Below, in pieces: positions 1 to 39,208 of a stretch of DNA of 39,208 bases (the stretch's first letter is position 1; the number at the start of each line of letters is the position of its first letter). A model generated the notes under the pieces. That model was not told the origin of the DNA, searched no databases, and saw only the letters and a list, made by a program, of their open reading frames with translations. The translations under genes and the position numbers were made by a program. The DNA is from a virus: positions 1 through 39,208 of IMG/VR virus record IMGVR_UViG_3300046665_000162. One strand, written 5' to 3'.

Positions 1-407
1 GACCGCCGACGTGCAGCAGAAAGCATCGGTCGATGTGGCGGCAGCGCAGGCTCAACAGAATGTCGCTGAACAGAACCTGGCCGACCGTAAGGCGGCGGAA
101 TCAGAAGCCAATGCGCAGGCCGCGCAAGCTGCGGCAGACGCCGCGAAGGAGAGGGGAAATGTGGAAAACGCTCAGTCTGTTCTCACTGACGATGCTGCTC
201 GCGATAGCCTTCTCGGGCTGTTGCACGGCACCGGCTCAGACAACCCCGCCGCAGGTCAAGGAAGTCCCGGTGATCAAAACCGTTGACAACTCGTGCAGCT
301 ATTTCAAGCCGATAATGCCGAGCGACGCCGACGTGAAGGTCATATCTCGATCGCTGGTCGATCAGATTACAGTGCACGACCGAACCGGAATCGCACACTG
401 TGGCTGG
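1..407 (+). repeat. Near-identical direct repeat of the window ends (left copy)
   Basis: Bases 1-407 align without gaps to 38802-39208, with 399 of 407 positions equal. Differences fall at 14, 26, 34, 61, 67, 82, 221 and 281. Five are silent in Rz and the two inside Rz1 are silent in Rz1. Confidence 0.95.
2..286 (+). CDS. Rz: Rz i-spanin, C-terminal part (left copy)
   Basis: This is the C-terminal 94 codons of an inner-membrane spanin; the 5' end, including the membrane anchor, lies outside the window. The visible part is Ala/Gln/Glu-rich and predicted to be helical, as expected of the periplasmic coiled coil of Rz proteins, which joins the outer-membrane Rz1 to disrupt the envelope after endolysin action. 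It matches the complete Rz at 38701-39087 except for three amino acids (Q/K, S/T and a final R/S). Rz1 is nested in its 3' half in another frame. The assignment rests on gene order after the endolysin and on the embedded Rz1 lipoprotein. Confidence 0.85.
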   Translation, partial: TADVQQKASVDVAAAQAQQNVAEQNLADRKAAESEANAQAAQAAADAAKERGNVENAQSVLTDDAARDSLLGLLHGTGSDNPAAGQGSPGDQNR

Positions 408-422
408 AAGTTCGGGAAGTAG
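159..422 (+). CDS. Rz1: Rz1 o-spanin lipoprotein (left copy, complete)
   Basis: This 87-residue outer-membrane spanin starts inside Rz in a different frame and runs 136 bases past the Rz stop. Residues 1-20 form a lipoprotein signal with lipobox AFSGC (Cys20), followed by a Pro/Thr-rich stretch (TAPAQTTPP), as is usual for Rz1. The start has a good purine-rich site (GAGAGGGGAA) just upstream. Length is above the roughly 60 residues of lambda Rz1 because of a C-terminal extension that includes two more cysteines. Every nucleotide difference from the right copy is silent in this frame. Confidence 0.88.
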   Translation: MWKTLSLFSLTMLLAIAFSGCCTAPAQTTPPQVKEVPVIKTVDNSCSYFKPIMPSDADVKVISRSLVDQITVHDRTGIAHCGWKFGK

Positions 423-644: not shown

Positions 645-1622
645 TCACACAGTCGCCGCTTGGGATTTCGATTGTTTGCGTGCTGCATAAAATCGGATCA
701 CGTCTGCGACTGTCTGTCTTGCGAGCAATGAGACGGCGCGCGCCCGGCTTTTGACCGGATCCGGCCATACGATAGTGCCCGGTTCTGCTGACTTCTCCAG
801 CACGACGATATATTCGAAACCCGAATCGAGCAGGAAGTAATCGACGACCCGCAGGCCGGTTCCCGACTTCTCGCCAGCGAGTCTCAGGACATCACGAAAT
901 GCCTGCTCGTCGTACACGTGATAGTGGTTTCGGTCTCCTTCGCTGACCCACTTATCCGCCGTCGCGTAGATCACCGGATCGCTTTCATCGAACTGATAGA
1001 TTGATTGGATCAGGTCCGCATAGTGATCGCGGGCGCTTGCCACCCGGTGATTTACGTCCTGAAAGTCGCGTTCGAAGTGTCGGGATGTCGGCGGCCGGCG
1101 CCGGAAGTCGAAGGGGTTATTGCGGAAGTTAGGCAGCGAAAGAAACAGCCGGCCGCCCGGCGCCAGAACCCGCAGCCACTCTATGACCGCACCGACCGGA
1201 TCGTCAAAGTGCTCGAGCACGTGATTGGCAATGAGGTAATCGCGCGAGCCATTCTCGAATTTATCGAGGCGGCCACCGTCAATCAGGTGCGTCACTTCCA
1301 CCAGCTTCTCTAGCGGAATCCCAAACTGCACTGACGTTTGCTCGCGCGTCAGACGGTCGATGTACTCAGTTCGCGCGGCGTGGCTGTTCACCTTTGTCGG
1401 CACGTTCTGCGCGCCGATCTCAAGGCCTACCCCATGAAGGCTTCGGCTCGCGATCCGGTCCCGGATTCTGGTCCTGCACCGCACCGATGCCGTATAGATG
1501 AGCCTGGCACTGCGCGGTCTGGAAAACATTTCGTGACAGAACGCCTTGACCCAAGGTGCCACGTCTTTGCCCGAATGGGCGTTCAAATGCTGGAACAGTG
1601 CAGATTTATACCGGCTCAACAT
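645..1622 (-). CDS. Class I SAM-dependent methyltransferase (accessory 'moron')
   Basis: The 325-residue protein has a Rossmann-type methyltransferase core: motif I LEIGA near residues 67-71, an acidic strand with YIDR near 87-90, and the Methyltransf_11-like segment ANHVLEHFDDP (132-142) followed by LAPGGRLFLSLPN (153-165). Similar proteins occur in polysaccharide and glycan gene clusters, so a surface-glycan or methyl-capping role is plausible but inferred. The start at 1622 is preferred over an upstream in-frame extension because GAGGA lies about 8 bases before it and because the extension reads through the tRNA-derived att sequence. It has its own candidate promoter and palindrome upstream. 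Its position between lysis genes and attachment site is classic for lysogenic-conversion genes. Confidence 0.8.
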   Translation of the reverse strand: MLSRYKSALFQHLNAHSGKDVAPWVKAFCHEMFSRPRSARLIYTASVRCRTRIRDRIASRSLHGVGLEIGAQNVPTKVNSHAARTEYIDRLTREQTSVQFGIPLEKLVEVTHLIDGGRLDKFENGSRDYLIANHVLEHFDDPVGAVIEWLRVLAPGGRLFLSLPNFRNNPFDFRRRPPTSRHFERDFQDVNHRVASARDHYADLIQSIYQFDESDPVIYATADKWVSEGDRNHYHVYDEQAFRDVLRLAGEKSGTGLRVVDYFLLDSGFEYIVVLEKSAEPGTIVWPDPVKSRARAVSLLARQTVADVIRFYAARKQSKSQAATV

Positions 1623-1716: not shown

Positions 1717-1760
1717 TACGGATGAAGGATTGGGGCGCCGCGCCGTCTGCTTTCTGATTT

Positions 1761-1942
1761 GCCAGCTTTTTGCCAGCTTTTATTCTGCGGTCCAGCGTTT
1801 ACAAGGAATTGCGGGGGTTCGAGTCCCCTTCCTCGCACCATCAAACCATTATCCAGCAAGGCTTTAACGGGTAAGGCTGGCGAAAATCTAGCCAGTTTTT
1901 GCCGGGTTTACGGAAGATTTGCCAGCATTTACGCCAGCATTT
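1761..1942. other. attP: Phage attachment region (attP-like) with arm-type repeats
   Basis: A tRNA 3' end (1813-1840) sits between two groups of direct repeats close to GCCAGCWTTT. The left group starts at 1761 and 1772, with a weaker TCCAGCGTTT at 1791; the right group starts at 1891, 1921 and 1933, with a degenerate copy at 1901 and an inverted GCTGGC at 1876. This resembles a core flanked by integrase arm-binding sites. The right repeats also encode the integrase C-terminus. The integrase gene ends next to the core, as usual for tRNA-targeting phages. Confidence 0.75.
1813..1840 (+). tRNA. tRNA 3' fragment (T-arm, acceptor strand, CCA): integration core
   Basis: The T-stem GGGGG/CCCCT encloses the loop TTCGAGT, followed by acceptor strand TCCTCGC, discriminator A and CCA. 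No D-arm or anticodon arm precedes it, so this is only the 3' portion of a tRNA gene, the part a phage carries to restore the gene on integration. The acceptor implies a tRNA beginning GCGAGGA, compatible with a leucine tRNA, but the isotype cannot be settled here. Confidence 0.8.
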
Positions 1943-3123
1943 TCAGCGAACTTCTCAACGGCTTTCGAACCCGAGGAATCATCCGCTGACGGCATCCATC
2001 GACCATACACGCGGGCGATCATAGTCCAGTCTGCGTGGCCCATCTGCTTCGCGACCCACATCGGGTGTTCACCGGCTGACAGCATCATTGATGCATAGGT
2101 GTGGCGCGTCTGATAGGGCCGGCGATACCTGACGGTCGCGCGTTTCAGTGCCGTCTGCCAGACCCGGTAAATCTGGTGCGATCCGGCGTAGCGCTCGCGC
2201 GTCGTCGGATTGACGAACACCGGGCCATCGGCTTCAGCCAGAAAGGTCATGGCCTTCTGCGCTTTCAGTGCGGCGAGTGCCGGCGCAAGCAGCTTCACGT
2301 CGCGGCGCCCCGCGTCGGTCTTCGGATACTCGGCGACCCCCTTCGACTCGCGCGTGATAGCGCGCCGCACCCGCACGAAGCCGCCCATGAAATCGATGTC
2401 GCTCCAGTTGAGCGCCGTCGCTTCGGACGTGCGCAGGCCAGTCCACAGGAAAAATTGCACCAGATTGTTTTCGCCTTCGCGCAGCTTCGCGAGGATCGCC
2501 CGCTGTTCTTCTGGCGAGAACGGATCAACGTCGTCTTCCGGCTCGCCTTCGACCGGCCGCTCGACCCGCGAGTAGGTGTATCCGGCGAGGGGATTCGTTT
2601 CGATAATCTCGTCTGCCGCGGCATCGCCTAGCGCTGATCGCATACAGCTCTGAATATTGGACAGCCGTTTGTTCGTGACCTTCTTTTCGTCCGGACGCCC
2701 GGCGTCGATCTTCGCCAGTTCGTTGCGGATCGCCGCGCGCTTCAGGTCGGTCAGCGCCAGATCGCCCCATGTCGGTATGACATAACCGAACGTGATCGAG
2801 TGGTAACCCTGGTATGTGGAGGCCTTTACCTCGGCCTTTTTCCGGTCAAGCCACGACTCGAAATACTTTTCCACAGTCAGAACATCGCCCGGTTTCTCCG
2901 CGAACTGCTCAAGATATTTCGAGTCCGGAAACTCAGCGGCGTAGTTAAATTTATCGATGCGAATGGCGTGCATGATTGCCGCACGCCACTCGATCATCTT
3001 TCGAAGATTGGCCGGAGAGAGGGTAGCTTTGACGCGCTCCCGGCACCTGACGCCCCTGTACGTGAACGTGATTTCATAGCTGGAGTCTGATGCGACGGCG
3101 ACTCCGGTCCCTTTTCTACCCAT
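1888..3123 (-). CDS. int: Tyrosine-family site-specific integrase
   Basis: This 411-residue recombinase would integrate the phage at the tRNA site. It has an N-terminal arm-binding domain of DUF3596 type (about 1-60), a core-binding helical domain (about 83-175) and a catalytic domain (about 200-380). Catalytic residues visible are Arg231 (GLRTSE), Lys268, Arg340 in PYQTRHTYAS, His363 in MGH and nucleophile Tyr373 (ARVYGRW). The HxxR box reads YQTR, a His-to-Tyr change seen in this subfamily. The start at 3123 is chosen because it gives the usual N-terminus and has GAGG 10 bases upstream. It is the last gene of the left operon and overlaps the excisionase by 130 bases. Confidence 0.95.
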   Translation of the reverse strand: MGRKGTGVAVASDSSYEITFTYRGVRCRERVKATLSPANLRKMIEWRAAIMHAIRIDKFNYAAEFPDSKYLEQFAEKPGDVLTVEKYFESWLDRKKAEVKASTYQGYHSITFGYVIPTWGDLALTDLKRAAIRNELAKIDAGRPDEKKVTNKRLSNIQSCMRSALGDAAADEIIETNPLAGYTYSRVERPVEGEPEDDVDPFSPEEQRAILAKLREGENNLVQFFLWTGLRTSEATALNWSDIDFMGGFVRVRRAITRESKGVAEYPKTDAGRRDVKLLAPALAALKAQKAMTFLAEADGPVFVNPTTRERYAGSHQIYRVWQTALKRATVRYRRPYQTRHTYASMMLSAGEHPMWVAKQMGHADWTMIARVYGRWMPSADDSSGSKAVEKFAENAGVNAGKSSVNPAKTG

Positions 3124-3284
3124 GATTCGTAAGCCTCGATGTCCATGAGGATCGTTTTCGATCCGGGTGCGTACCGCCAGACCGTCCCTTCCAGCCAGAC
3201 GCCCTTGCACTTCTTCGTGTAGACGGCTGCCGGCGTCATTCCGGTCAATTCGCAGAATTTGGCAATTGTTACAAAGCGTACCAT
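2994..3284 (-). CDS. xis: Excisionase-like DNA-binding protein
   Basis: The 96-residue protein opens with MVRFVTIAKFCELTG followed by a winged-helix-like segment ending in WRYAPGSKTILMDIEAYESWVE, the pattern of small phage excisionases related to MerR-type domains. Such proteins bend att DNA and direct integrase toward excision. The C-terminal 40 residues are polar and overlap int in another frame, which keeps the two genes coupled. The start at 3284 has a strong AGGGGG site; an upstream in-frame start is less likely. Confidence 0.8.
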   Translation of the reverse strand: MVRFVTIAKFCELTGMTPAAVYTKKCKGVWLEGTVWRYAPGSKTILMDIEAYESWVEKGPESPSHQTPAMKSRSRTGASGAGSASKLPSLRPIFER

Positions 3285-3294
3285 GGTCGCCCCC

Positions 3295-3369
3295 TCATCC
3301 TTGGGCGTGGGGGACAGACCATGCCCGCGCCGTCGTTTCAATAACCCGCTGCGCCTCTGCCTCGATCAC
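3295..3369 (-). CDS. Possible 24-aa coupled peptide upstream of xis
   Basis: A GTG start overlaps the stop of the preceding gene as GTGA, the same junction type used throughout this operon, and the ORF ends 11 bases before the xis start. The peptide (MIEAEAQRVIETTARAWSVP...) is short and mostly polar, with an amphipathic look. It may serve mainly to carry ribosomes to xis. Only junction geometry supports it. Confidence 0.35.
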   Translation of the reverse strand: MIEAEAQRVIETTARAWSVPHAQG

Positions 3370-19063: not shown

Positions 19064-19507
19064 ATGGCCGGCCGTCCGTCGAAGTACAAGCCCGAGTATT
19101 GCGAGTTGGCGAAGAATTATTGCCTTCTGGGCGCGACGGACGTTGAAGTAGCGGGGTTTCTCGGCATTGGTCTGAGGACCTTGAATGACTGGAAGATTGC
19201 CCACGCAGACTTTTACGAGGCTATGTCGTGGGGCAAAGATCAGGCGGATGCCAAAGTTGCGTCCAGTCTGTTTCACCGCGCGACTGGCTACAGCCATCCC
19301 GATGTCGATATTCGGGTGATCGCCGGTCAGATAGTAAAAACCGATCTGATCAAGCACTACCCGCCTGACTCTGCGGCAGGAATTTTCTGGCTCAAGAATC
19401 GGCGTGGTTGGCGCGATCGTGTCGATCATGAAGTTTCTGGCAAAGACGGCGCGCCAATCCAATACCAAGCCGTCGAGCGCAAGATCATCGATCCGAAAGC
19501 CGAATGA
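19064..19507 (+). CDS. terS: Terminase small subunit
   Basis: The 147-residue protein opens with MAGRPSKYKPEYCELAKNYC, then an HTH segment (ATDVEVAGFLGIGLRTLNDWKI, about 25-46) and the helical ALFHRATGYSHP-like core (SSLFHRATGYSHPDVDI). This is the DNA-recognition subunit that marks the packaging start and loads the large subunit. It overlaps terL by four bases. A pac site may lie in or near this gene, which cannot be seen by eye. Confidence 0.9.
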   Translation: MAGRPSKYKPEYCELAKNYCLLGATDVEVAGFLGIGLRTLNDWKIAHADFYEAMSWGKDQADAKVASSLFHRATGYSHPDVDIRVIAGQIVKTDLIKHYPPDSAAGIFWLKNRRGWRDRVDHEVSGKDGAPIQYQAVERKIIDPKAE

Positions 19508-20739
19508 CTACGCTGACCATCGAGACGCCACGGGTGTATCTCCCGCTGCTTCAGCCTGCGCGCTACAAAGGCGCGTTCGGTGGCCGTGGATCGGGCAAGT
19601 CACACTTTTTCGCCGAGCTGCTGGTCGAGGAATGCATCCGGCAGCGCACCGATGCCGTGTGCCTGCGCGAGATCCAGAAGTCGCTGAAGTTCTCGGTCAA
19701 GAAGCTGATCGAGAGCAAGATACAGAGCCTGAACGCCGGCTACTACTTCGACGTGCTCGATTCGCAGATCAACTCGAAGCAGGGCGGCGTCATCATCTTT
19801 CAGGGCATGCAGGACCATACGAGCGATTCGATCAAGTCGCTCGAAGGCTTCCGCATTGCGTGGTTTGAGGAAGCGCAGACAGCCAGCCAGCGCAGTCTTG
19901 ATCTGCTGCGCCCGACCATCCGCGCGCCGGGCAGCGAACTATGGTTCGGCTGGAATCCTCGCTTTTCCACCGATCCGATCGATGTGCTGCTGCGTGGTGA
20001 GAATCCGCCGCCTAACGCGCGAATCGTCGAAGCCAATTTCAGCGACAACCCATGGTTCCCGCAAGAGCTTGTCGACGAAATGGAGTACGACAAGACGCGC
20101 GACCCGGACAAATACGCGCATATCTGGCTCGGCGCATATCAGCAGAACAGCGAAGCGCGCGTGTTCAAGAACTGGAGCGTCGAGGAATTCGAGCGGCCAG
20201 CTGGCACAGTGCATCGGCTGGGCGCTGACTGGGGCTTCTCAGTCGATCCGTCTGTGCTGATCCGCTGCGATATCGAAGGCAACCGCCTGTACGTCGATTA
20301 CGAGGCCTACATGGTGGGCTGTGAGATCGTGAACCTGCCCGAGCTGTTCATGAGCGTGCCGGACGCCGAGAAGTGGCCTATCACGGCCGACTCCGCGCGG
20401 CCGGAGACGATCAGCCACATGCAGAAGAACGGCTTCCCGAAGATTCGCGCGGCCATCAAGGGCGCGAAATCGCTGGAAGAAGGCGTCGAGTTCCTGAAGT
20501 CGTTCGATATCGTCGTTCACCCGCGGTGCAAGCATCTGATCGACGAACTCACGCTCTACAAATACAAGGAAGACCCGCTTACCGGGGCGATCCTGCCGAT
20601 TCTCGAAGACAAGGATAACCACGTGATCGACGCGCTGCGCTATGCCTGCGAGGGCGCCCGACGTGCTGGGAAGGCTCCGAAGCCTTCGAAACCTGTAATG
20701 CGCCGCACCGTGCATGGTGCTGGCGCCTGGATGGGCTGA
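19504..20739 (+). CDS. terL: Terminase large subunit (PBSX-type)
   Basis: This 411-residue packaging motor has Walker A GGRGSGKS (residues 26-33), Walker B RIAWFEEAQ (117-125) and a C-terminal nuclease with Asp in GADWGFSVD (240-247), in ADSARPE and in DNHVIDALRY (near 370-380). The family fits headful (pac) packaging as in P22-like and PBSX-like phages. It fills procapsids through the portal and cuts the concatemer. Length is normal. Confidence 0.96.
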   Translation: MTTLTIETPRVYLPLLQPARYKGAFGGRGSGKSHFFAELLVEECIRQRTDAVCLREIQKSLKFSVKKLIESKIQSLNAGYYFDVLDSQINSKQGGVIIFQGMQDHTSDSIKSLEGFRIAWFEEAQTASQRSLDLLRPTIRAPGSELWFGWNPRFSTDPIDVLLRGENPPPNARIVEANFSDNPWFPQELVDEMEYDKTRDPDKYAHIWLGAYQQNSEARVFKNWSVEEFERPAGTVHRLGADWGFSVDPSVLIRCDIEGNRLYVDYEAYMVGCEIVNLPELFMSVPDAEKWPITADSARPETISHMQKNGFPKIRAAIKGAKSLEEGVEFLKSFDIVVHPRCKHLIDELTLYKYKEDPLTGAILPILEDKDNHVIDALRYACEGARRAGKAPKPSKPVMRRTVHGAGAWMG

Positions 20740-20742: not shown

Positions 20743-22899
20743 ATGGCACGCAAACGCAAATCCGACGACGCTGAATCGAACGGGCTGGACCCGATCGTCA
20801 AGGAGGCCAAGGATCGTTTCGCCCGTTGCGATGATGCCGAGTCGTCGTTCCGCAAGTTGTTCGTCGAGGATATGAAGTTCGCCAACGGCGATCCGGATAA
20901 CAACTGGCAATGGCCGGACCAGATCCGCCAGTCTCGAGACGGCGACCAGCGTCCATGCCTGACGATCAACAAGGTGCGCCAGCACAACTTGCAGATCATC
21001 AACGACGCGAAGCAGAACAAACCGAGCATCAAGACGCTGCCGATCGACGGTCAGGCCGATATCCAGATTGCGAAGATTCTGGACGGCATCATGCGCCACA
21101 TCGAATACAACTCGCATGCCGAGATTGCCTACGACACGGCGACGGAGTTCGCTGTGCAGGGTGGTCTCGGTTACTGGCGCGTCGTGACTGAGTATGCGCA
21201 TGATGGGTCGTTCGAGCAGGAAATCTTTATCCGGCGCGTGAAAGATCCCCTGAGCGTCTATCTTGACCCGGATATTCAGTCTGCCGATGGCGCAGACGCG
21301 AAGTTCGGCTTCGTGTTTGAGGACGTTCCGAAAGAGGAATACGAGGCGCAGTATCCGGACGAAGACCCGGCGAGCGTCACGTTCCCGATGGAAGCGACCG
21401 GTGATCCGTGGCTGGATAAGGATCATGTGCGCGTGTGCGAATACTTCCGCCGCGCCGAGAAGACGGACATGCTCATCAATCACCCTGTGAATGGGCCGAT
21501 GAAGCTGTCCGAAGTGGGCGACGCAGACGAGCGCAAAGCCCTGCTCGCCGACGACAGCGTGAAGAAGCGCGAGATCACCGAGCCGCATTTCCAGTGGTTC
21601 AAGATCGCTGGCGACAAGATCATCGACCGCAAGGAATGGCTGGGCCGCTATCTGCCGATCGTGCGCGTGGTGGGCGAGGAAATCGTCATCAACGGCAAGG
21701 TTGAGCGCAAGGGCCACACGCGCAACATGAAAGACGGCCAGCGCATGTACAACTACATGACCTCGGCCAACGTCGAATACATCGCGCTGCAAACCAAGAC
21801 GCCGTACGTCGCACCTGTCGAAGCCATCGAAGGCTATGAGGACGAGTGGGCGAATGCGAACAAAGATAACAAGGCGTATCTGCCCTACAACGGGCTGCGT
21901 GAGGATGGCAGTGCCATTGAGCGCCCGATGCGCGAGCAGCCTCCCGTAGGGGCTTCCGCGTACCTGCAAGCCATGCAAACGGCACAGCAGGAGCTGATGA
22001 TGACATCGGGCCAGTATCAGGAGCAGTTCGGCGCGCCGTCGAATGCCGATGCTGGCGTTGCCATTGCCGCGCGTCAGCGTCAGGGCGACAAGGCGACATA
22101 CCATTTCATCGACAACGTGGCGCGCGCGATCCGCTACACCGGCCGCATCATGGTCGACCTCATCCCGAAGATTTACGACACGCAGCGCGTGGTTCGGATC
22201 GTCGGCGAAGACGGAAGCGAGGACTTCGCGCAGATCAATCCGCAACAGCCGCATGCAGTCGGCGACCAGCAGGGCAATGCGCAGCAGGCGCCGGCCGATA
22301 ACTCGAAGCTGAGCGCAGAACAGGCCGCGCAACTGATCTACAACCCTGGCATTGGCCGCTATGACGTGACGGTCGAGGTTGGCCCGAACTATGAGACGCG
22401 CCGGCAGGAAGCGTTCCATGCGCTCACGCAGATCATGTCGCAGGATCAGGACTTGATGAAGGTCGCGGGCGATCTGCTGTTCAAGGCTGCGGATTTCCCG
22501 ATGGCCGATGAGGTTGCAGAACGTCTGCACCGCACGATCCCGGCTGCGATCCTCGGCGAAGGCCCGAGCCCGCAAGAGCAGGACATGGAGCAGAAGATGC
22601 AGCAGATGGGCCAGATGATCGAGCATCTGACGGCCGAGCTTCAGAACGCGCGCAGCGGCAAGGATCAGCAGGAAACGGACATCAAGGCCTATGACGCTGA
22701 AACCAAGCGCCTTCAGGCACTCGGCCAGCCGCTCGATCCGGAGCTGGTCGCGCATGTCGCGACGCAGGTCGTAATGCAGATGATGCAGACCGGAGCGCCG
22801 GAAGGAAATCCTTCCGCAGCGCCGCCGGGCGCGCAGCAGAATCAACCCCAACCGAACCCGCCGAGCGCGGGTTTTTCTTTGCCCGCTCAACCTCAATAG
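20743..22899 (+). CDS. P22-like portal protein
   Basis: At 718 residues this matches the P22 gp1 family: N-terminal helical clip/wing (ESSFRKLFVEDMKFANGD, then TINKVRQHNLQIINDAKQNKPSI), a central region with RRVKDPLSVYLDPD, and a C-terminal barrel with heptad-like sequence (QDMEQKMQQMGQMIEHLTAELQNA, about 610-640). The portal forms the dodecameric vertex through which DNA enters and leaves. The last 40 residues are Pro/Gln/Ala-rich. It starts three bases after terL. Confidence 0.95.
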   Translation: MARKRKSDDAESNGLDPIVKEAKDRFARCDDAESSFRKLFVEDMKFANGDPDNNWQWPDQIRQSRDGDQRPCLTINKVRQHNLQIINDAKQNKPSIKTLPIDGQADIQIAKILDGIMRHIEYNSHAEIAYDTATEFAVQGGLGYWRVVTEYAHDGSFEQEIFIRRVKDPLSVYLDPDIQSADGADAKFGFVFEDVPKEEYEAQYPDEDPASVTFPMEATGDPWLDKDHVRVCEYFRRAEKTDMLINHPVNGPMKLSEVGDADERKALLADDSVKKREITEPHFQWFKIAGDKIIDRKEWLGRYLPIVRVVGEEIVINGKVERKGHTRNMKDGQRMYNYMTSANVEYIALQTKTPYVAPVEAIEGYEDEWANANKDNKAYLPYNGLREDGSAIERPMREQPPVGASAYLQAMQTAQQELMMTSGQYQEQFGAPSNADAGVAIAARQRQGDKATYHFIDNVARAIRYTGRIMVDLIPKIYDTQRVVRIVGEDGSEDFAQINPQQPHAVGDQQGNAQQAPADNSKLSAEQAAQLIYNPGIGRYDVTVEVGPNYETRRQEAFHALTQIMSQDQDLMKVAGDLLFKAADFPMADEVAERLHRTIPAAILGEGPSPQEQDMEQKMQQMGQMIEHLTAELQNARSGKDQQETDIKAYDAETKRLQALGQPLDPELVAHVATQVVMQMMQTGAPEGNPSAAPPGAQQNQPQPNPPSAGFSLPAQPQ

Positions 22900-23421: not shown

Positions 23422-23439
23422 TCGTTTTCAGATTTCCAG

Positions 23440-23477
23440 AAGGCCCGTTTCTCTCACGAGAGCGGGCCTTTTTCTTT
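23440..23477 (+). terminator. Terminator between portal block and scaffold
   Basis: AAGGCCCG and CGGGCCTT form an 8-bp stem, with a further CTCTC/GAGAG stem inside the loop, followed by a T-rich tract. It would reduce transcription into the scaffold/coat genes unless antitermination is active. There is no obvious promoter directly downstream. Confidence 0.85.
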
Positions 23478-23525
23478 TGGTCCGTACCGGTGCGGCATCA
23501 CCGGGCTCAATCCTTGGACACGTCC

Positions 23526-24275
23526 ATGCAAACCGATGAGAACGCTTCAACCGAAGTAGAGAACGTCACGCCTACGGCCTCCACGGAACAGGCGCAACAG
23601 CCCGCTGAAGTCAGCACGGAACCGGGCGCCGGGCAAACCACGGAAGCAGTCGAGCAGACGCAGCAGGAAAAGCCCAAGAACGACTGGGTTCAACGCCGCA
23701 TCGACCAGCTCACGCGGGAGAAACACGAGGAAAAGCGGCAGCGTGAAGCGCTCGAACAGCAGTTGCGGCAGTACCAGCAACCTGCTGACAACTCGCAGCA
23801 GCCCCAGCAACGGCAGATGAGCGCCGACGAGGTGCGGGCCGACGAGGTGCGGGCCGAAGCGAAGCGCCTCATCCAGCAAGAGAAGTTCGATGACGCCTGC
23901 AACAAGGTGTTCGACGCCGGCAAAGGCGAGTTCGGTAACGAGTGGGATTCGTCGCTGCGCACGTTCCAGATGCTCGGCGGCGCATCGCCCGAGTTTCTCG
24001 AAGCCGTCACGGCGATGGATGCCGGCCACAAGGTGCTGCACCACTTGGGCCAGAACCCGGAAGTCGCTGAGCGCCTGCTGTCCCTTCCTCCGTTGCGCAT
24101 GGCGCTTGAACTGGCCCGTCTCGAATCGACGGTCGGTCAGGCCAAACCCAAACCCGTTTCCAACGCCCCCGCACCGATCAACCCGATCGGCGGACGGTCC
24201 GCACCTGTCGAGCCCGAGGAATTCGCCACGGCCGCAGAGCAGATCGCGTGGTGGAAGAAACACGGCTCCAAATGA
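23526..24275 (+). CDS. Scaffolding protein
   Basis: The 249-residue protein has a disordered, acidic Glu/Gln/Thr-rich N-terminus, a coiled coil (RRIDQLTREKHEEKRQREAL, about 54-90), a tandem repeat (ADEVRADEVRAEA) and a structured helical C-terminal part. This composition, and its place just before the coat gene, are typical of P22-type scaffolds that guide procapsid assembly and then leave. The start at 23526 avoids an N-terminal extension in a region lacking a good ribosome site. Confidence 0.85.
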   Translation: MQTDENASTEVENVTPTASTEQAQQPAEVSTEPGAGQTTEAVEQTQQEKPKNDWVQRRIDQLTREKHEEKRQREALEQQLRQYQQPADNSQQPQQRQMSADEVRADEVRAEAKRLIQQEKFDDACNKVFDAGKGEFGNEWDSSLRTFQMLGGASPEFLEAVTAMDAGHKVLHHLGQNPEVAERLLSLPPLRMALELARLESTVGQAKPKPVSNAPAPINPIGGRSAPVEPEEFATAAEQIAWWKKHGSK

Positions 24276-24284
24276 GGCTGAAAA

Positions 24285-25487
24285 ATGGCTAATACCCTTC
24301 TCAATACCAGCAAGATCCTCGACAAGTCGTTGATGATCCTCGAAAACAACCTGGCGTTCTCGTCGCGCGTGAACAAGGAATACAGCGACGAATTCGCCGT
24401 CAAGAGCGCAAAGATCGGCTCGACGGTGAACGTGCGTAAGCCGGTTCGCTTCGTCGGCACGACCGGCCCCGCGCTGGCTGTCGAAAACGTGGTGGAAACC
24501 GTCATTCCGGTGACGCTCGACACGCAGTTCCACGTCGACTTCCAGTTTTCGTCTCAGGAACTGACGTTGAACATCGACGACTTCGCGGAGCGCTACCTCG
24601 CGCCGGCGATGGCGACGATCGCCAACAAGATCGACCTCGACGGTCTCGGTCTGTACACCACGGTCGCCAATCAGGTGGGCACCGCTGGCACCACGCCGAG
24701 CGACATCGCAACGCTGCTGGCCGCCGGCACGCGCCTCGATCAGGAAGCCGCGCCGCGCGACGGTCAGCGCGCAGTCGTGTGGGATCCGGCCGCAAATGGT
24801 TCGATGGTGAAGGCCGCTGCTGGCCTGTTCAACGCTCCGCAGAAGATCAGCGATCAGTACGCAAGCGGCATCTTCGTGCCGGCGCTGGGCTTCGACATCG
24901 GCATGGATCAGAACATCCGTCAGGCAACCGCTGGCACGCGCACCAACGGCACTGTGTCGGGTGCAGGTCAGACGGGCAGTTCGCTGCTCGTGACCGGCCT
25001 GGGTGCAGGCGGCACGGTCGCAGCGGGCGACACCTTCACGCTGGCAGGTGTGTACGCGGTGAACCCGCAATCGCGCCAGTCGACTCGCGTGTTGCGCCAG
25101 TTCACGGTATTGACCGCTGCGACGGCTGACGGCTCGGGCAATGCAACGCTGTCGATCTTCCCGGCGATCAACACCGCGGCTTCGAACCAGCAATACCAGA
25201 CGGTCACGGCCGGCCCGGCAAACGCTGCTGTCGTCACGTGGGACGTTGCCGCAAGCACGCAGTACACCGTGAACATGGCGTATCACAAGAACGCCTTCAC
25301 GCTCGCCACGGCTGACCTGCAGATGCCGGAAGGTGTCGACTTCGCCGGCCGCCGCAACCACAAGGGTATTTCCATGCGGATCGTGCGTCAGTACGCAATC
25401 GGGACGGACACGTTCCCGTGCCGTATCGACGTGCTGTACGGCTGGCGCCCGGTCTACAACGAACTCGCCTGCCGCATCGCCGGCTGA
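24285..25487 (+). CDS. Major capsid protein (P22 coat family)
   Basis: The 400-residue coat protein has the P22_CoatProtein pattern: N-arm ANTLLNTSKILDKSLMILENNLAFSSRVNKEY, E-loop/P-domain segment (IGSTVNVRKPVRF), a spine helix (FAERYLAPAMATIANKID), an inserted Gly/Ala/Thr-rich beta domain (about 220-335) matching the I-domain position, and a closing HK97-like segment. Length is close to P22 gp5 (430 aa). It follows the scaffold by 9 bases. Confidence 0.94.
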   Translation: MANTLLNTSKILDKSLMILENNLAFSSRVNKEYSDEFAVKSAKIGSTVNVRKPVRFVGTTGPALAVENVVETVIPVTLDTQFHVDFQFSSQELTLNIDDFAERYLAPAMATIANKIDLDGLGLYTTVANQVGTAGTTPSDIATLLAAGTRLDQEAAPRDGQRAVVWDPAANGSMVKAAAGLFNAPQKISDQYASGIFVPALGFDIGMDQNIRQATAGTRTNGTVSGAGQTGSSLLVTGLGAGGTVAAGDTFTLAGVYAVNPQSRQSTRVLRQFTVLTAATADGSGNATLSIFPAINTAASNQQYQTVTAGPANAAVVTWDVAASTQYTVNMAYHKNAFTLATADLQMPEGVDFAGRRNHKGISMRIVRQYAIGTDTFPCRIDVLYGWRPVYNELACRIAG

Positions 25488-25494
25488 TTGAACA

Positions 25495-25536
25495 AGGGGC
25501 CGTCATGTTCGGTTCGACGTGCGGCCCCTGTCTTCT
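25495..25536 (+). terminator. Attenuator-like hairpin after the coat gene
   Basis: AGGGGCCG and CGGCCCCT pair across a 19-base loop, followed by a pyrimidine-rich GTCTTCTT tract. It could lower transcription of tail genes relative to coat. The T-tract is weak, so partial termination or mRNA 3'-end protection is more likely than complete termination. Confidence 0.6.
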
Positions 25537-25549
25537 TGTGGAGTGGTTC

Positions 25550-25888
25550 ATGCCATACGAAAAATTCCCGATGTGGACGCATAAGCAGGGCGAGAAATCG
25601 CGCGTCGTCCATACGCAGGAAGAATTTGATGCACTCGGCGAAGGCTGGTCGGACCATCAGCACGTCCCGCCGAAAGTGCATGTCGATGCTGACACGTTCC
25701 AGCATTACCCGAAGTGGGTAGGCGACAAGCTCGTGCACAGCGCCGAGGAAGAAGCCGCGCTTGCGCCGTCCGAGCCCGAGCAGAACGACGAGCGCGCCGC
25801 GCTGCTCCAGATCGCCGACGAGCGCGGCGTGAAGGTCGACAAGCGCTGGTCGAATGACAAGATTCGCGCGGCTCTGGAGGCAGTGTGA
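25550..25888 (+). CDS. Head-tail region protein with HeH/SAP-like C-terminus (112 aa)
   Basis: The N-terminal part (MPYEKFPMWTHKQGEKSRVVHTQEEFDALGEGW) is followed by an acidic linker and a C-terminal helix-extended-helix-like segment (ERAALLQIADERGVKVDKRW then KIRAALEAV). Such C-termini bind DNA or cap proteins in several phage head genes. The position between coat and gp4-like gene fits a head-completion or DNA-binding accessory role. GGAG precedes the start. Confidence 0.7.
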   Translation: MPYEKFPMWTHKQGEKSRVVHTQEEFDALGEGWSDHQHVPPKVHVDADTFQHYPKWVGDKLVHSAEEEAALAPSEPEQNDERAALLQIADERGVKVDKRWSNDKIRAALEAV

Positions 25889-26604
25889 CTACGGGAACTG
25901 ATCTGATCACGCTGGCGCTGAAGGACATCGGCGCGTTGGGTATCGGGCAGGCTGTCTCTGCTGAAGATACGGCCGATGCGCTGGCCACGCTGAACATGAT
26001 GCTCGGCCAGTGGGATGCTGAGCGCCTGAGCGTCTATCACCTGGTCGATACGGCGCATCAGGCGAACGGATCAGTTTCCTACACGGTCGGCCTAGGCGGC
26101 GACTTCAACGTCACGCGGCCGATCAAGATCAACGCCGCCTATGCGCGCCTGCAAAGCAGCGGCGCCGGCAGCGCGGTCGATTACCGGATCTCGATGATCG
26201 ACGCGCGCGAAGACTATTCGCGCATCAGCCTCAAAACGCTGTCGTCGTTCCCTGAGTGGGCGTTCTACGACTCGGCCTATCCGCTTGGCACCCTGTTTCT
26301 GTACCCGGTCCCGAACAGCAGCTACGAGCTGCACATCGTGACGATGGAGACGCTGCCGCAGCTTGCGACGGCCGGAACATCAGTCAACCTGCCGCCGCCG
26401 TATCTGGCCGCGCTGCGCTACAACCTCGCGATCTACCTGTGCCCGTCCTATCAGCTTGAGCCGACGCCGTCACTGGTGCGCCTCGCGATGAACGCCAAGC
26501 GCGTGATCAAACGGATGAACACGCAGATTCCGCAACTGACGATGCCGCGCGGTCTGATGTCGAAATCCCGCTACAACATCTACAGCGACAATTCGAGCAA
26601 CTGA
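25885..26604 (+). CDS. P22 gp4-like tail accessory factor
   Basis: This 239-residue protein matches the P22 tail accessory factor superfamily: N-terminal ITLALKDIGALGIGQAVSAEDTADALATLNMMLGQWDAERL, a beta-rich centre, and a C-terminal helical region ending in Arg/Lys-rich helices. It binds the portal after packaging and seals the head. It is larger than P22 gp4 (166 aa) because of an extra C-terminal part. The start is GTG in a GTGA overlap. No lytic activity motif is evident. Confidence 0.88.
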   Translation: MTTGTDLITLALKDIGALGIGQAVSAEDTADALATLNMMLGQWDAERLSVYHLVDTAHQANGSVSYTVGLGGDFNVTRPIKINAAYARLQSSGAGSAVDYRISMIDAREDYSRISLKTLSSFPEWAFYDSAYPLGTLFLYPVPNSSYELHIVTMETLPQLATAGTSVNLPPPYLAALRYNLAIYLCPSYQLEPTPSLVRLAMNAKRVIKRMNTQIPQLTMPRGLMSKSRYNIYSDNSSN

Positions 26605-28028
26605 TGCGCATCCCGCTCACATCCGGCGCGTACCAGACGCGCAGCGTTATTGCTGAAGCGCAGCGCAGTGTGAACCTGTACGCCGAAGCTAATCCTCAGG
26701 ATGCGCCGTGCCCGTTCACCTACTATCCGACACCGGGCCTGACGCTCGTTTCGACGCCGCCAGGTGAGGGTGAATGCCGCGCGATCTATACCGCGAGCAA
26801 CGGTAATCGCTATGACGTGGTCGGGCAGAGCGTGTATTCGGTCAGTGCCACGAACGCCTATACCGCGCTTGGGCTGCTCACCTCGACGGGTGGGCCTGTC
26901 TCGATGGTCGACAACGGTACCGATGTATTTATCGTCGACGGCACTGTGAACGGGTTCACGATCGATCTGGAGACCAATGTCATGTCTCCCGTTTCCGATC
27001 CGGCGTTCTATGGTGCTGACAAGGTCGATCTGGTGGATGGGTATTTCCTGTTCAACCGGCCCGGCACACCGCAGTTCTACATTTCCCTGTTCGACGGGAT
27101 CACGTTCGACCCGCTCGACATTGCATCGAAATCGACCTATTCCGACAACCTCGTGACCCTGGCCGTCATGCACCGGGAAATCTGGCTGTTCGGCGAACTC
27201 ACAACTGAGGTTTGGTACAACACCGGCGCCTCAGACTTCACCTTTGGCCGCATGCCGGGCGTGTTCATCGAGCATGGCTGCGCGGCCAAGCATTCGGTCG
27301 CGAAGATCGATCTCGCGCTGTTCTGGCTCGGGCAGGATCTGCAAGGGCAGAACGTGGTATTCGCCGGCCGAAACTACATCGCCGAGCGGATTTCGACACA
27401 TTCGATCGAGCAGGCGCTGGCCGGCTATTCGCGCGTTGACGATGCAATCGGCTTCTCATACCAGCAGGGCGGCCACGCCTTCTATGTGCTGACGTTCCCG
27501 ACCGCGAATGCGACATGGTGCTTCGATGTGGTGACCGCGCAATGGCATCAGCGCGCATATCTGGAAGCCGATGGCACACTCAGCCGCCACCGCATGAACT
27601 GCCATTCGTTCAATGCGGGCCGCAATCTGGTTGGCGACTGGCAGACGGGTAACGTCTATGCGCTCGACCCGAATGCCTACACCGATAACGGGACGACGAT
27701 CGAATACATCCGGGCATTCCCGCACATCCTGGGCAGCGACGGCAACCGCGTGATGTTCCGCCAGTTCATCGCAGACATGGAAGTCGGCAACGGGCTGCCT
27801 GACGACTCCGATTCACCTGAAATCCGGCTTCGCTGGAGCGATGACCGGGGCCGAAGCTGGGGGAACTGGATTCAGGGATCACTCGGCAAGCTTGGCGAAT
27901 ACCTGACCTCAATCCAGTTCCAGCGACTCGGCTATTCGCGTGATCGTGTGTTTGAGCTGTCGTGGTCAGCGCCGGTCAAGACTGCGCTCAACGGCGCGTG
28001 GGTTGATGTTTCGAGGTCGCGCACGTGA
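26604..28028 (+). CDS. P22 gp10-like packaged-DNA stabilisation protein (tail hub)
   Basis: The 474-residue protein starts MRIPLTSGAYQTRSVIAEAQRSVNLYAE, a highly typical N-terminus of gp10-like proteins, and has repeated beta-propeller-like strands such as ISLFDGITFDPLDIASK and EIWLFGELTTEVWYNTG. It forms the hub that attaches to gp4 and holds the tailspikes. Length agrees with P22 gp10 (472 aa). Confidence 0.92.
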   Translation: MRIPLTSGAYQTRSVIAEAQRSVNLYAEANPQDAPCPFTYYPTPGLTLVSTPPGEGECRAIYTASNGNRYDVVGQSVYSVSATNAYTALGLLTSTGGPVSMVDNGTDVFIVDGTVNGFTIDLETNVMSPVSDPAFYGADKVDLVDGYFLFNRPGTPQFYISLFDGITFDPLDIASKSTYSDNLVTLAVMHREIWLFGELTTEVWYNTGASDFTFGRMPGVFIEHGCAAKHSVAKIDLALFWLGQDLQGQNVVFAGRNYIAERISTHSIEQALAGYSRVDDAIGFSYQQGGHAFYVLTFPTANATWCFDVVTAQWHQRAYLEADGTLSRHRMNCHSFNAGRNLVGDWQTGNVYALDPNAYTDNGTTIEYIRAFPHILGSDGNRVMFRQFIADMEVGNGLPDDSDSPEIRLRWSDDRGRSWGNWIQGSLGKLGEYLTSIQFQRLGYSRDRVFELSWSAPVKTALNGAWVDVSRSRT

Positions 28029-28534
28029 GCGACGCGACCAACAGCAACATCCCGAATCCCGGGGTTCCGTTCCTCGATTCGAGCGGGCGCATTACGCAGG
28101 TCTGGTGGGCTTTTCTGCTCGCGATCTTCCAGCGGACAGGCGGCAGCGGGACGCCGACGCCGCCGACGCAGATCGACTATTCGCCGCTGATCGACGCTCA
28201 GGCACCATATCCGCCCGCTGCGATCGATCCGTATGGCGTCGCGCTGGCGCCGGTGGCTGCGCCGCAAATTGTGTTCGATGCGCCGCCGGATGCCGTGGCC
28301 GCTCCGTATATCCCGGCCGACCCGATCGAGGACATTTTCACCGCTGGCACCGACTTTACGCCGGGCACGACGGTGAGCCTGGCGCTTTCGAAGGTCTATG
28401 CGTCTGCGCCTGCAGTTCTCGTGCATTTCGATGGCACGTTTCAGGCAACGGACCAGTACAGCGTTTCCGGCAACACGATCACTTTCACGTCGGCCATTCC
28501 GGTTGGGGTGTCCAAAGTCTATGCGCGAGGCTAA
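28025..28534 (+). CDS. Tail protein with beta module shared with the tailspike
   Basis: The 169-residue protein has an N-terminal segment NIPNPGVPFLDSSGRITQVWWAFLLAIFQRTGG, a Pro/Ala-rich linker, and a C-terminal module (about 105-169) whose pattern FTAGTDFTPG...VHFDGT.QATDQY...TITFTSAIPVGV closely matches residues about 98-165 of the tailspike. It occupies the P22 needle (gp26) slot but lacks a long coiled coil, so it is not a typical needle. A hub-to-spike adaptor is plausible. Confidence 0.75.
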   Translation: MSDATNSNIPNPGVPFLDSSGRITQVWWAFLLAIFQRTGGSGTPTPPTQIDYSPLIDAQAPYPPAAIDPYGVALAPVAAPQIVFDAPPDAVAAPYIPADPIEDIFTAGTDFTPGTTVSLALSKVYASAPAVLVHFDGTFQATDQYSVSGNTITFTSAIPVGVSKVYARG

Positions 28535-28537
28535 AGC

Positions 28538-28870
28538 ATGACGACCAAATATCGCGAAATGGTGGCGGCCCAGACGCTGACTGCCAGCGCAGTTTCGTAT
28601 TACACGACGCCGGGCGGCACATATGGTGCGATCCACGCCGGCAGCATCTGCAACCCGACCGGCGCCGTCGTCACGGTGAATATATACAAGGTGCCGAGCG
28701 GCAACACGGCCGGCTCGCCCACGAAGATCGCCAGCAAATCTGTTGGCGCGGGCGCGACGATCGCAGTCCCGGAACTGGTGAACCACAAGATGGAGCCGGC
28801 CACGCAGATTTATGCCGATGGTCTCGCCTGCACGCTGAATATCAGCGGTATCGAATACGTCCCGAGCTAA
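28538..28870 (+). CDS. Small beta-rich structural protein (110 aa)
   Basis: The product (KYREMVAAQTLTASAVSYYTTPGGTYGAIHAGS, later VTVNIYKVPSG and CTLNISGIEYVPS) consists of short beta strands with Gly/Thr turns and resembles small virion or fibre-associated beta-sandwich proteins. No catalytic pattern is visible. It follows the tail-module gene by three bases and is followed by the hydroxylase. Confidence 0.7.
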   Translation: MTTKYREMVAAQTLTASAVSYYTTPGGTYGAIHAGSICNPTGAVVTVNIYKVPSGNTAGSPTKIASKSVGAGATIAVPELVNHKMEPATQIYADGLACTLNISGIEYVPS

Positions 28871-28873
28871 ACA

Positions 28874-29455
28874 TTGAAAAACTTCCATTTCCTCGCTACT
28901 GGCGTTGACGTCAATCCGCTGATGCTCGCGATCCGCCGCCGTCCGGACCTGTGGAAGGAGGACACGTTTCTCCGCCACTACCCGCAAGGCCCGTTTGGCG
29001 AAACCGAAACGATCATGCTGCGCTTTCCCGAGAAGGTCGCTGGCCTGACGGAAGAGCAGATTGAGCTTTACAAGCAGAACCAGCTTGCCGGATACGACCA
29101 GTACGAGGCGATCGACTATCCCGCCTACAAGGTGCTGCACGAAGCGCGACCGCTCGTGATGAACCTGATGGCGCGCGTGCAGGGCGAGCGTCTTGGCCGC
29201 GTGATGATTAACAAGGTATGCCCGGGTGGCCGTATCTTCGCGCATGCCGACACGCCCGAGCAGACGCGCTACTACACGCGCTTTCACGTGGTGCTGCACG
29301 GCCTGCCGGGCGCGGTCCTGAAGGCCGGCGACGAGCAGATCAACATGCTGACGGGCGAGTGTTTCTGGTTCGACAACAGCCAGATCCACGAAGTCATCAA
29401 TAACAGCGCCGACGAACGCGTTTCGATGGTCGTCGATATCAGGACTTCGCGATGA
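28874..29455 (+). CDS. Aspartyl/asparaginyl beta-hydroxylase family protein
   Basis: This 193-residue protein fits the Fe(II)/2-oxoglutarate-dependent Asp/Asn hydroxylase family. His124-x-Asp126 (FAHADTPEQ) and His172 (SQIHEV) would bind iron, with Arg136/His138 (TRFHVVLHG) and Arg182 near the C-terminus as likely co-substrate contacts. Such enzymes hydroxylate side chains of proteins. TTG at 28874 is preferred because it supplies the family N-terminus (FHFLATGVDVNPL). It overlaps the acetyltransferase gene by four bases, so the two form a unit. Its substrate may be a virion or host protein. Confidence 0.88.
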   Translation: MKNFHFLATGVDVNPLMLAIRRRPDLWKEDTFLRHYPQGPFGETETIMLRFPEKVAGLTEEQIELYKQNQLAGYDQYEAIDYPAYKVLHEARPLVMNLMARVQGERLGRVMINKVCPGGRIFAHADTPEQTRYYTRFHVVLHGLPGAVLKAGDEQINMLTGECFWFDNSQIHEVINNSADERVSMVVDIRTSR

Positions 29456-29910
29456 TTACTTTCACCATCGAGCCGTTTTCGAGCGTCTATGCTGAGTTGC
29501 TGCCACTCCTTCAGGCGCACTACGGTGAAATCTCGACCCACAAGGACCACGGCGTACCGCTCGAGCCGGTTGTCGAGGTCTACCGCGCGCGCGAACTCGA
29601 CGGCTCGCTGATGATGACGATCGGCCGCGAACGAGGCGAAATAGTCGCCTATTTCGTGTGCTTCATTGCACCGGGTCTGCATTACCGCTCGTGCCTAACA
29701 TGCTCGCCTGACATTTTCTTCGTGCGCGAAGACAAGCGCACGGGGATCGCCGGCGTCAGGATGTTCCGCTTCGTTGAAAAAGAACTACGCCGCCGTGGTG
29801 TGAAGCGATGGGCGGTCGGCAGCAAGGTTCAGCACGACGCGTCGGCTCTGTTCAAGTTTCTCGACTTCGAGCCTGTCGAGACGACCTTCGAAAAATGGCT
29901 GGAGGATTAA
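29452..29910 (+). CDS. GNAT-family N-acetyltransferase
   Basis: The 152-residue protein has the GNAT order: an N-terminal helix, LMMTIGRERGEIVAYFVCFI (strand 2-3 region), SPDIFFVREDKRTGIAGVRMFRFVEKELRRRGV (strand 4, acetyl-CoA-binding loop with R-x-x-G-x-A-like RTGIAG, and helix 3), and a C-terminal FKFLDFEPVETTFEKWL. It transfers acetyl from acetyl-CoA to an amine of a protein or small molecule. Similar proteins are found in podophage tail blocks. ATGA overlap couples it to the hydroxylase. Confidence 0.88.
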   Translation: MITFTIEPFSSVYAELLPLLQAHYGEISTHKDHGVPLEPVVEVYRARELDGSLMMTIGRERGEIVAYFVCFIAPGLHYRSCLTCSPDIFFVREDKRTGIAGVRMFRFVEKELRRRGVKRWAVGSKVQHDASALFKFLDFEPVETTFEKWLED

Positions 29911-29913
29911 ATC

Positions 29914-30663: not shown

Positions 30664-30671
30664 GAAAAAAC

Positions 30672-34453: not shown

Positions 34454-34540
34454 CCACCGATAGACAGGCGGAATGATCACGACCATGAAGCAGAACACGA
34501 TGGTCCTAAAAACGTCGCCCCAGAAATGACTGCCGTTCAT
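34334..34540 (-). CDS. Antisense small membrane-protein ORF in the immI-like slot (68 aa)
   Basis: The ORF MNGSHFWGDVFRTIVFCFMVVIIPPVYRWLL... has one clear membrane segment (about residues 11-30) and a basic cytoplasmic tail (RRRGEWDPILGKRIPYWDRKPRARGK). A GGGGA site precedes the ATG, and a perfect TATAAT lies about 36 bases upstream on the minus strand, without a good -35. The last 120 bases overlap the 3' end of the ejection gene antisense. Its place equals that of the P22 immI/sieA region, so superinfection exclusion is a hypothesis. It may still be a fortuitous ORF. Confidence 0.42.
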   Translation of the reverse strand: MNGSHFWGDVFRTIVFCFMVVIIPPVYRWLLRTCDRIDESIARRRGEWDPILGKRIPYWDRKPRARGK

Positions 34541-34550
34541 TGATTTCCCC

Positions 34551-34575
34551 AAGCCCTCCCTGTGAGGGCTTTTTC
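34551..34575 (+). terminator. Terminator 1 before the tailspike
   Basis: AAGCCCTC and GAGGGCTT form an 8-bp stem with a 5-base loop followed by TTTTC. It lies after the ejection-protein gene. With the next hairpin it forms a double terminator. Confidence 0.85.
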
Positions 34576-34580
34576 ATTAT

Positions 34581-37555: not shown

Positions 37556-37933
37556 ATGAGCGGCGCCGTGAGCAGATACAGCAGTGAGCCGCCGCATACC
37601 GAGGGTGACGGATTCCGCGCCGTTGCTGCTGCGCTTGACGCACTGCGCGACGAAATCGGAACGCGGCATGTTGAAAACACCAGCTCGCTAGAAGTGCTGG
37701 AAAAGGACGTGAAGGTGCTTATCGAGCAGGTCGATCGGCTTGCGAAAGGGTTCCCGGAGGATGATCCGGACGGCCACAGGCGGATGCATGAAGCCCTGAT
37801 CGAGAAAGCAAAAGCCAGAACTGAGCTATATCGCGACTTGCAAAAGAAGTTGCTTGAGCGCGGCGTTCTGGCAGTCCTCGGGGCGATCGCGGTCGCGATC
37901 TGGTTTTACGTGAAGTCGAGGTTGAATTCGTGA
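37556..37933 (+). CDS. Coiled-coil membrane protein of the lysis cassette (XhlA-like)
   Basis: The 125-residue protein has a helical, heptad-rich middle (LEVLEKDVKVLIEQVDRLAKG, then MHEALIEKAKARTELYRDLQKKLLERG) and a single C-terminal membrane helix (VLAVLGAIAVAIWFYV). This layout resembles XhlA-type proteins that act with holins. It overlaps the holin gene. Its role may be as holin partner or antiholin. Confidence 0.72.
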   Translation: MSGAVSRYSSEPPHTEGDGFRAVAAALDALRDEIGTRHVENTSSLEVLEKDVKVLIEQVDRLAKGFPEDDPDGHRRMHEALIEKAKARTELYRDLQKKLLERGVLAVLGAIAVAIWFYVKSRLNS

Positions 37934-37941
37934 GGTACAAG

Positions 37942-38229
37942 ATGATTCGAGATTTACTGATCGCGGACCTGAAAACGATCCGCTCGTGGTGGTCGGTGCG
38001 CATCGGCGCATTCGGCGTGATCCTGCTGGCAGCAATCCCGGCGATCTCCGACCAGTTCCCGAACGTGGCGCCGTCACTGCTGATGTTCTTTCCGAAGCAC
38101 GGTCAGCAGTGGGTGCCGATCGCTGGCGCTGTGCTGGCCGTCGTGGCGCGAGTCGTCAGCCAGGCCGCAATGCTTGATCGGGTGCGCGGCATGTTCCGCC
38201 GCAAAGGGGGCGACGATGGCGCGCATTGA
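37942..38229 (+). CDS. Holin
   Basis: This 95-residue protein contains two hydrophobic helices (VRIGAFGVILLAAIPAI and WVPIAGAVLAVVARVV) separated by a short loop, and a basic charged C-terminus (DRVRGMFRRKGGDDGAH), typical of class II holins. It would open the inner membrane to release the endolysin. ATG at 37942 has GAGG seven bases upstream; a GTG at 37930, overlapping the previous gene, is an alternative start. Confidence 0.83.
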   Translation: MIRDLLIADLKTIRSWWSVRIGAFGVILLAAIPAISDQFPNVAPSLLMFFPKHGQQWVPIAGAVLAVVARVVSQAAMLDRVRGMFRRKGGDDGAH

Positions 38230-38704
38230 TGCATTGACGGCGGGCGGTGAGAACCGTATCGCCTTCCTCGACATGATCGCGGTCAGCGAGATCGGCGCGG
38301 CGCTGCTCGCGGAGAGCGACGACGGATACAACGTGCTCGTCGGCAGTACGCCCGCGAAGCCGCTGCTGTTCAAGTCCTACGCCGATCACCCGAACGTGCT
38401 GAATACCGCGCTGCGCTCGACTGCGGCCGGCCGTTACCAGATCCTCAACCGCTGGTGGCGCATCTACAAGGCGCAAATGTTCCTGCGCGACTTCTCGCCT
38501 ATCTCGCAAGACCGCTACGCACTCCAGCAGTTACGCGAGCATGGCGCGCTGCCGCTGATCGATGCAGGCGCATTCGAAGCCGCGGTCGCCAAGGTGTCGA
38601 ACGTGTGGGCCAGCCTGCCGGGCGCCGGGTATGGGCAGCACGAGAACCAGATCGAACATTTGCTGGTCGCGTATCAGGCGGCTGGCGGGGAGCTATCGGA
38701 ATGA
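38216..38704 (+). CDS. R: Endolysin, lambda R-like lytic transglycosylase (GH104)
   Basis: The 162-residue enzyme matches lambda R: FLDMIAVSEIG with probable catalytic Glu25, then GYNVLVGS, YADHPN, AAGRYQILNRWW, RDFSPISQDRYALQQLREHGALPLID and NVWASLPGAGYGQ. These enzymes cleave the glycan strand to 1,6-anhydro products. No signal peptide is seen, so release needs the holin. The start overlaps the holin stop by 14 bases. Confidence 0.95.
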   Translation: MARIDALTAGGENRIAFLDMIAVSEIGAALLAESDDGYNVLVGSTPAKPLLFKSYADHPNVLNTALRSTAAGRYQILNRWWRIYKAQMFLRDFSPISQDRYALQQLREHGALPLIDAGAFEAAVAKVSNVWASLPGAGYGQHENQIEHLLVAYQAAGGELSE

Positions 38705-39087
38705 CAGCCGCAATCGCTTTACTTCTGAAGTTTGGCCCATGGCTGCTGACTGCCGGTGCGGCGCTCTTTGCGCTGATCACACACCTGAAAGCGAAGGCGA
38801 CGACCGCCGACGTGAAGCAGAAAGCAACGGTCGACGTGGCGGCAGCGCAGGCTCAACAGAACGTCGCCGAACAGAACCTGGCAGACCGTAAGGCGGCGGA
38901 ATCAGAAGCCAATGCGCAGGCCGCGCAAGCTGCGGCAGACGCCGCGAAGGAGAGGGGAAATGTGGAAAACGCTCAGTCTGTTCTCACTGACGATGCTGCT
39001 CGCGATAGCCTTCTCGGGCTGCTGCACGGCACCGGCTCAGACAACCCCGCCGCAGGTCAAGGAAGTCCCGGTGATCAAAACAGTTGA
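38701..39087 (+). CDS. Rz: Rz i-spanin (right copy, complete)
   Basis: The 128-residue protein has an N-terminal signal-anchor (about residues 4-26, ALLLKFGPWLLTAGAALFAL) and a long Ala/Gln/Glu-rich helical periplasmic domain, matching Rz architecture. It overlaps the endolysin stop by four bases. Rz1 is embedded from 38960. Its 3' part from 38802 is the near-duplicate of the window's left end. Confidence 0.88.
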   Translation: MTAAIALLLKFGPWLLTAGAALFALITHLKAKATTADVKQKATVDVAAAQAQQNVAEQNLADRKAAESEANAQAAQAAADAAKERGNVENAQSVLTDDAARDSLLGLLHGTGSDNPAAGQGSPGDQNS

Positions 39088-39208
39088 CAACTCGTGCAGC
39101 TATTTCAAGCCGATAATGCCGAGCGACGCCGACGTGAAGGTCATATCTCGATCGCTGGTCGATCAGATTACAGTGCACGACCGAACCGGAATCGCACACT
39201 GTGGCTGG
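38802..39208 (+). repeat. Near-identical direct repeat of the window ends (right copy)
   Basis: This is the second copy of the 407-base repeat, ending at the window edge. Its differences from the left copy are at 38815, 38827, 38835, 38862, 38868, 38883, 39022 and 39082. Joining the copies would give a circle of about 38.8 kb. Confidence 0.95.
38960..39208 (+). CDS. Rz1: Rz1 o-spanin lipoprotein (right copy, cut by window end)
   Basis: The reading frame has the same lipobox AFSGC, Pro/Thr stretch and Cys-containing C-terminal region as the left copy and is identical in protein sequence over the visible part. The stop codon lies beyond the window. It starts inside Rz in another frame, the nested spanin arrangement of lambda-like phages. 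Confidence 0.86.
   Translation, partial: MWKTLSLFSLTMLLAIAFSGCCTAPAQTTPPQVKEVPVIKTVDNSCSYFKPIMPSDADVKVISRSLVDQITVHDRTGIAHCGW

Follow-up and report, generated by a model that had tools for sequence, protein, structure and literature searches.

The authors of CheckV state that repeats at contig ends are often equal in length to the k-mers of assemblers (PMC8116208), and those of COBRA describe end overlaps of maxK length as well as the fragmentation of assemblies by variation within a population (PMC10914622). The window examined in this study, i.e. the whole stretch of DNA analysed, which is 39,208 bases long and makes up an entire virus record in IMG/VR, also has ends that match each other. 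We propose, with a probability of about 0.9, that it is an unclosed circular or circularly permuted genome of a temperate P22-like phage, about 38.8 kb long, whose assembly drew on two or more co-occurring strains.

Results

Terminal overlap

Comparison of the window with itself aligned its two ends (Table 1) at 98.03% identity, with 8 mismatches and no gap. A reading of this DNA from the sequence alone (hereafter the sequence-only reading) had described an end alignment of 407 bases with eight substitutions and no indels, and it was exact. This is the sole repeat of comparable level in the window, and a match of 407 bases is far beyond chance expectation. Both copies reach the contig edge exactly, a point absent from the sequence-only reading; 407 is therefore the length of an overlap, and we are dealing with a terminal overlap and not with a bounded repeat. 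The last 126 bases of the right copy are identical to positions 282-407.

The mismatches lie at overlap bases 14, 26, 34, 61, 67, 82, 221 and 281. Five of the eight are silent in the Rz frame, the other three giving Q/K, S/T and R/S, and the two that fall in Rz1 (221 and 281) are both silent in Rz1; the change at base 221 (TTG/CTG) leaves both proteins unaltered. These codon claims had been made before and all of them hold. By chance, a substitution would leave Rz unchanged in about 24% of cases, which gives P = 0.024 for at least five silent changes among eight, and the excess suggests, short of proof, that the two copies are real alleles. Three exact DNA pattern scans of viral_contigs, where the own and nearest records may be omitted, gave 0 matches to other carriers of either Rz/Rz1 allele; a protein-pattern search for the spanin alleles returned 40 stretches that fitted the pattern, none of them confirmed. 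As no other carrier was found, the second allele comes without an independent sighting and the alleles are not polarised.

Lysis genes, methyltransferase-like gene and attachment site

The right end carries, in this order, holin, endolysin and Rz with the nested Rz1; the left end continues with the remainder of Rz1, a methyltransferase-like gene, the att core and the integrase (Table 1). No PHROG or Pfam match was obtained for Rz, and no Pfam match for Rz1 (right copy), so the names Rz and Rz1 rest on position and architecture. The methyltransferase ORF was listed as 645-1859; we set its start at about 1622 from the corresponding ATG of the homologue in G001, a relative described below. The gene is kept in G001 (93% aa) and in a second relative, G002 (about 90% nt). 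It lies at the prophage edge and may be a lysogenic-conversion gene.

Table 1. Features of the window and of its terminal overlap
Feature	Coordinates	Strand	Evidence
Left overlap copy, allele A: 3′ part of Rz and most of Rz1	1..407	+	Self-comparison, codon analysis
Rz1-like outer-membrane spanin lipoprotein, 87 aa, Cys-rich signal end; nested in Rz in another frame; whole in left copy only	159..422	+	Architecture
Class I methyltransferase-like gene, between lysis cassette and attP	645..1622	-	Pfam PF08241, E 3.4e-8; 325-aa G001 homologue
attP core, last 27 bases of tRNA-Leu(TAG) including CCA	1814..1840	+	Match to tRNA 3′ end
Tyrosine integrase with arm-binding domain	1888..3210	-	PF00589, PF12167; PHROG 1
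Terminase large subunit (Terminase_3)	19504..20739	+	PHROG/Pfam searches
P22-like portal	20743..22899	+	PF16510, E 1.6e-166
P22-like coat protein	24285..25487	+	PF11651, E 1.3e-46
Holin	37930..38229	+	PHROG 1356, E 5.6e-12
Endolysin	38174..38704	+	PHROG 90, E 1.1e-47
Rz-like inner-membrane spanin, 128 aa, N-terminal hydrophobic stretch; whole in right copy only	38701..39087	+	Position after holin/endolysin and architecture
Right overlap copy, allele B: 8 substitutions, 0 indels	38802..39208	+	Self-comparison, codon analysis
Second Rz1 copy, truncated by contig end	38960..39208	+	ORF and codon analysis

An att site had been mentioned in the sequence-only reading, and the att core adjoining the integrase is real. 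The intact tRNA at L066 gives a 28-base match that runs through its 3′ end and covers the att core of the window, and arm-like repeats TTGCCAG(C) at 1759, 1770 and 1919 flank the core on both sides. No complete tRNA was found in the window; the loci of all three close integrase homologues in Paraburkholderia genomes also contain a tRNA-Leu(TAG). We read the site as a free attP, i.e. the uncut phage form. Its use to tell a free phage from tandem prophages was abandoned, since both place attP in the middle.

A relative that joins the two ends

The two ends of the window are linked in one molecule, with the same spacing, in G001 (IMGVR_UViG_3300046455_000199, 25,019 bp), which comes from another metagenome. 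This single contig matches window positions 23,430-38,705 at 96.3%, continues with 520 bp containing its own Rz/Rz1 and then matches positions 423-1728 at 95.9%, leaving space for exactly one Rz/Rz1 locus. In G001 the phage map natively runs from the lysis genes to the integrase end. Its endolysin protein is 100% identical to that of the window; for the spanins, BLASTP gave no Rz hit and an Rz1 hit at E 0.82 with no useful alignment. As G001 has neither spanin allele of the window, the copy of the main strain is not identifiable from it. G002 (L062) covers the methyltransferase-attP-integrase stretch at 90% nucleotide identity (integrase 93% aa), and its own start lies near the Rz1 end.

Three further differences between the window and G001 were observed. 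The spanin pair (38706-39208 and 1-422 in the window, L003:5533-6052 in G001) is exchanged as a whole, the borders being the stop codons of the endolysin gene and of Rz1, and identity is about 96% on both sides of the swap. At 1729-3337 (L003:7359-9426), G001 has another integrase-like ORF and a 167 aa ORF replacing attP and the integrase, again with sharp edges; by eye, we take the 167 aa ORF to resemble a GIY-YIG nuclease and the neighbouring ORF to be integrase-like. Finally, identity is 80% in the bin 37500-38000, which holds a small ORF (37556-37933) before the holin, and 97-99% in the neighbouring bins.

Ends of other metagenome virus contigs

The end comparison covered 30 of 32 records (G019 and G023 were left out), plus the window and G001. 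Exact terminal overlaps were present in 10 of the 30 contigs: 127 bp in six of them (G003, G004, G021, G024, G025 and G033), 126 bp in G016, 125 bp in G029, 95 bp in G005 and 55 bp in G032. Two others had inexact overlaps. In G022, a 36.5-kb record (ends L240 and L241), the overlap extends over 933 bp with 70 mismatches (92.5% identity), the first of them at base 128; that of G020 measures 125 bp with 5 mismatches. A single codon phase takes 53 of the 70 mismatches in G022 and 4 of the 5 in G020, the pattern expected of real alleles, and G022 is probably a second complete genome masked by strain differences. Terminal overlap was absent in 18 of the 30 contigs and also in G001.

Converted to window coordinates, the closure points of relatives fall at about 21.0 (G032), 21.7 (G029), 26.8 (G021) and 29.9 kb (G020). 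Such scatter is expected for circular maps; it would fit permutation and also plain circularity.

Assembly graph at the overlap

We inferred k=127 from the overlaps of these siblings; the assembler was presumably of the metaSPAdes type. In a 127-mer graph of both alleles, the last private path of allele B runs out at overlap base 407, precisely where the contig itself stops. The final identical run of the window, 126 bases, compares with 127 as the commonest length among the exact overlaps of siblings, a difference that counts against the explanation proposed here. Overlap bases 83-220, 138 bases identical in both copies, are traversed twice and give 12 repeated 127-mers; the idea that every 127-mer of the window is unique was dropped on this ground. 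The contig is therefore not a simple unitig, and its path was presumably guided by read pairs or similar.

A model of how the overlap arose would then start from one phage map unit of about 38,801 bp, circular or circularly permuted. An assembler building de Bruijn graphs from short reads would enter the map in the spanin genes on the allele of one strain, run through the whole of it and re-enter the spanin genes on the allele of another strain. The eight allele differences would block closure of the circle, and assembly would stop at the base from which k=127 no longer tells the alleles apart. The ends of the window would thus show a single Rz/Rz1 locus twice, as carried by different strains of a mixed population, and not two successive genomes. 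Both alleles would coexist in the phage population of the sample, and headful packaging would be the source of permutation. A mixed population had also been mentioned in the sequence-only reading, and this part of it is supported by the exact overlaps of k=127 type and the two inexact ones among siblings, as well as by G001 joining the ends.

Alternative explanations

The sequence-only reading had also offered two genomes in succession, for example tandem prophages at one tRNA. Two related prophages would then lie in tandem at the tRNA-Leu of one bacterium, the window holding the end of the first, an attP-type junction and then the second. Tandem prophages are described in the literature, and they would account for the attP junction as well as for the divergence between the two copies of Rz. 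By the same reasoning as above, near-identical prophages in tandem would interrupt a de Bruijn assembly at this very base, and the graph therefore cannot discriminate between a tandem array and a single genome. However, the host DNA and intact tRNA predicted beside another att copy were not found within the window, and the 407 bases alone are present twice, with no second full phage copy; the second att site that a tandem array requires is likewise absent from the record, although on all these counts the array could reach past it. The same junction order is native in G001, and siblings commonly close with exact 125-127 bp overlaps. In the genus Paraburkholderia, 9 of 144 genomes matched the portal, with one copy each, and none of the three genomes that hold a close integrase had a second one. 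In both searches, copies may have been merged where assemblies are drafts, and 8 of the 9 portal-bearing genomes are distant (26-44% identity), which makes the multi-copy test a weak one. With a free attP, the native order of G001 and no multi-copy genome among the nine, the proposal of two successive genomes found no support. We prefer a single genome because of parsimony, the native junction and the siblings, and consider a tandem array very unlikely.

Terminal repeats of some hundred bases exist in other phages, and the overlap could in principle be a real terminal repeat of one linear phage genome, or a duplication of its spanin locus. Here, however, it lies inside coding genes, its copies are non-identical and both are cut by the contig ends; moreover the spanin locus is single at the corresponding site of G001, and relatives close elsewhere on the map. 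We regard this explanation as extremely improbable. Finally, assemblies are least trustworthy at their contig ends, but that one copy is merely wrong through sequencing or assembly error is hardly credible given the share of silent changes in Rz (P = 0.024 against random) and in Rz1, and the similar codon-phase bias at the inexact ends of G022 and G020.

Discussion

The terminal overlap of the window is real, and its cause is ordinary and already explained. A caution follows for other data: a 98%-identical end overlap in a metagenomic phage contig is most simply a complete mixed-strain genome and not two successive ones. Exact terminal-repeat tests miss such genomes; among the 32 records with compared ends, the window, G020 and G022 were of this kind.

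The Rz/Rz1 cassette itself could be an exchange hotspot in this phage group, with the population of the window segregating alleles there. We put this forward as a tentative and rather doubtful idea. The window and G001 share the endolysin and the methyltransferase gene, but their spanin pairs are unalignable and the edges fall at gene borders. If true, such a hotspot would account for assemblies breaking at Rz/Rz1.

Similarly to P22-like temperate phages, the window has a P22-type portal and coat protein, a Terminase_3 and a tyrosine integrase at tRNA-Leu(TAG). A scan of genome_contigs gave one relative out of 22 candidate stretches, in the Burkholderiaceae member Paraburkholderia kirstenboschensis, with a portal 84-86% identical to that of the window, whereas the nearest portal in the phages collection, from Pseudomonas phage PAE2, is only 50% identical over 83% of the length. 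Judged from these comparisons of sequence, the phage itself is new, within the P22-like temperate phages.

With tandem prophages at one attachment site, the window shares an attP-type junction at which a lysis end meets an integrase end; it differs from them in having no host flank and no second complete genome, its junction is native in a relative and no multi-copy genome was seen in the genus. It resembles more directly the k-mer-length direct terminal repeats treated by CheckV and COBRA, which are likewise overlapping contig ends of a circular or permuted phage map: its final shared stretch is close to k=127, and siblings have exact 127-bp overlaps. Unlike those repeats, the overlap of the window is longer (407 bases) and carries 8 allelic differences, so that an exact terminal-repeat test fails on it.
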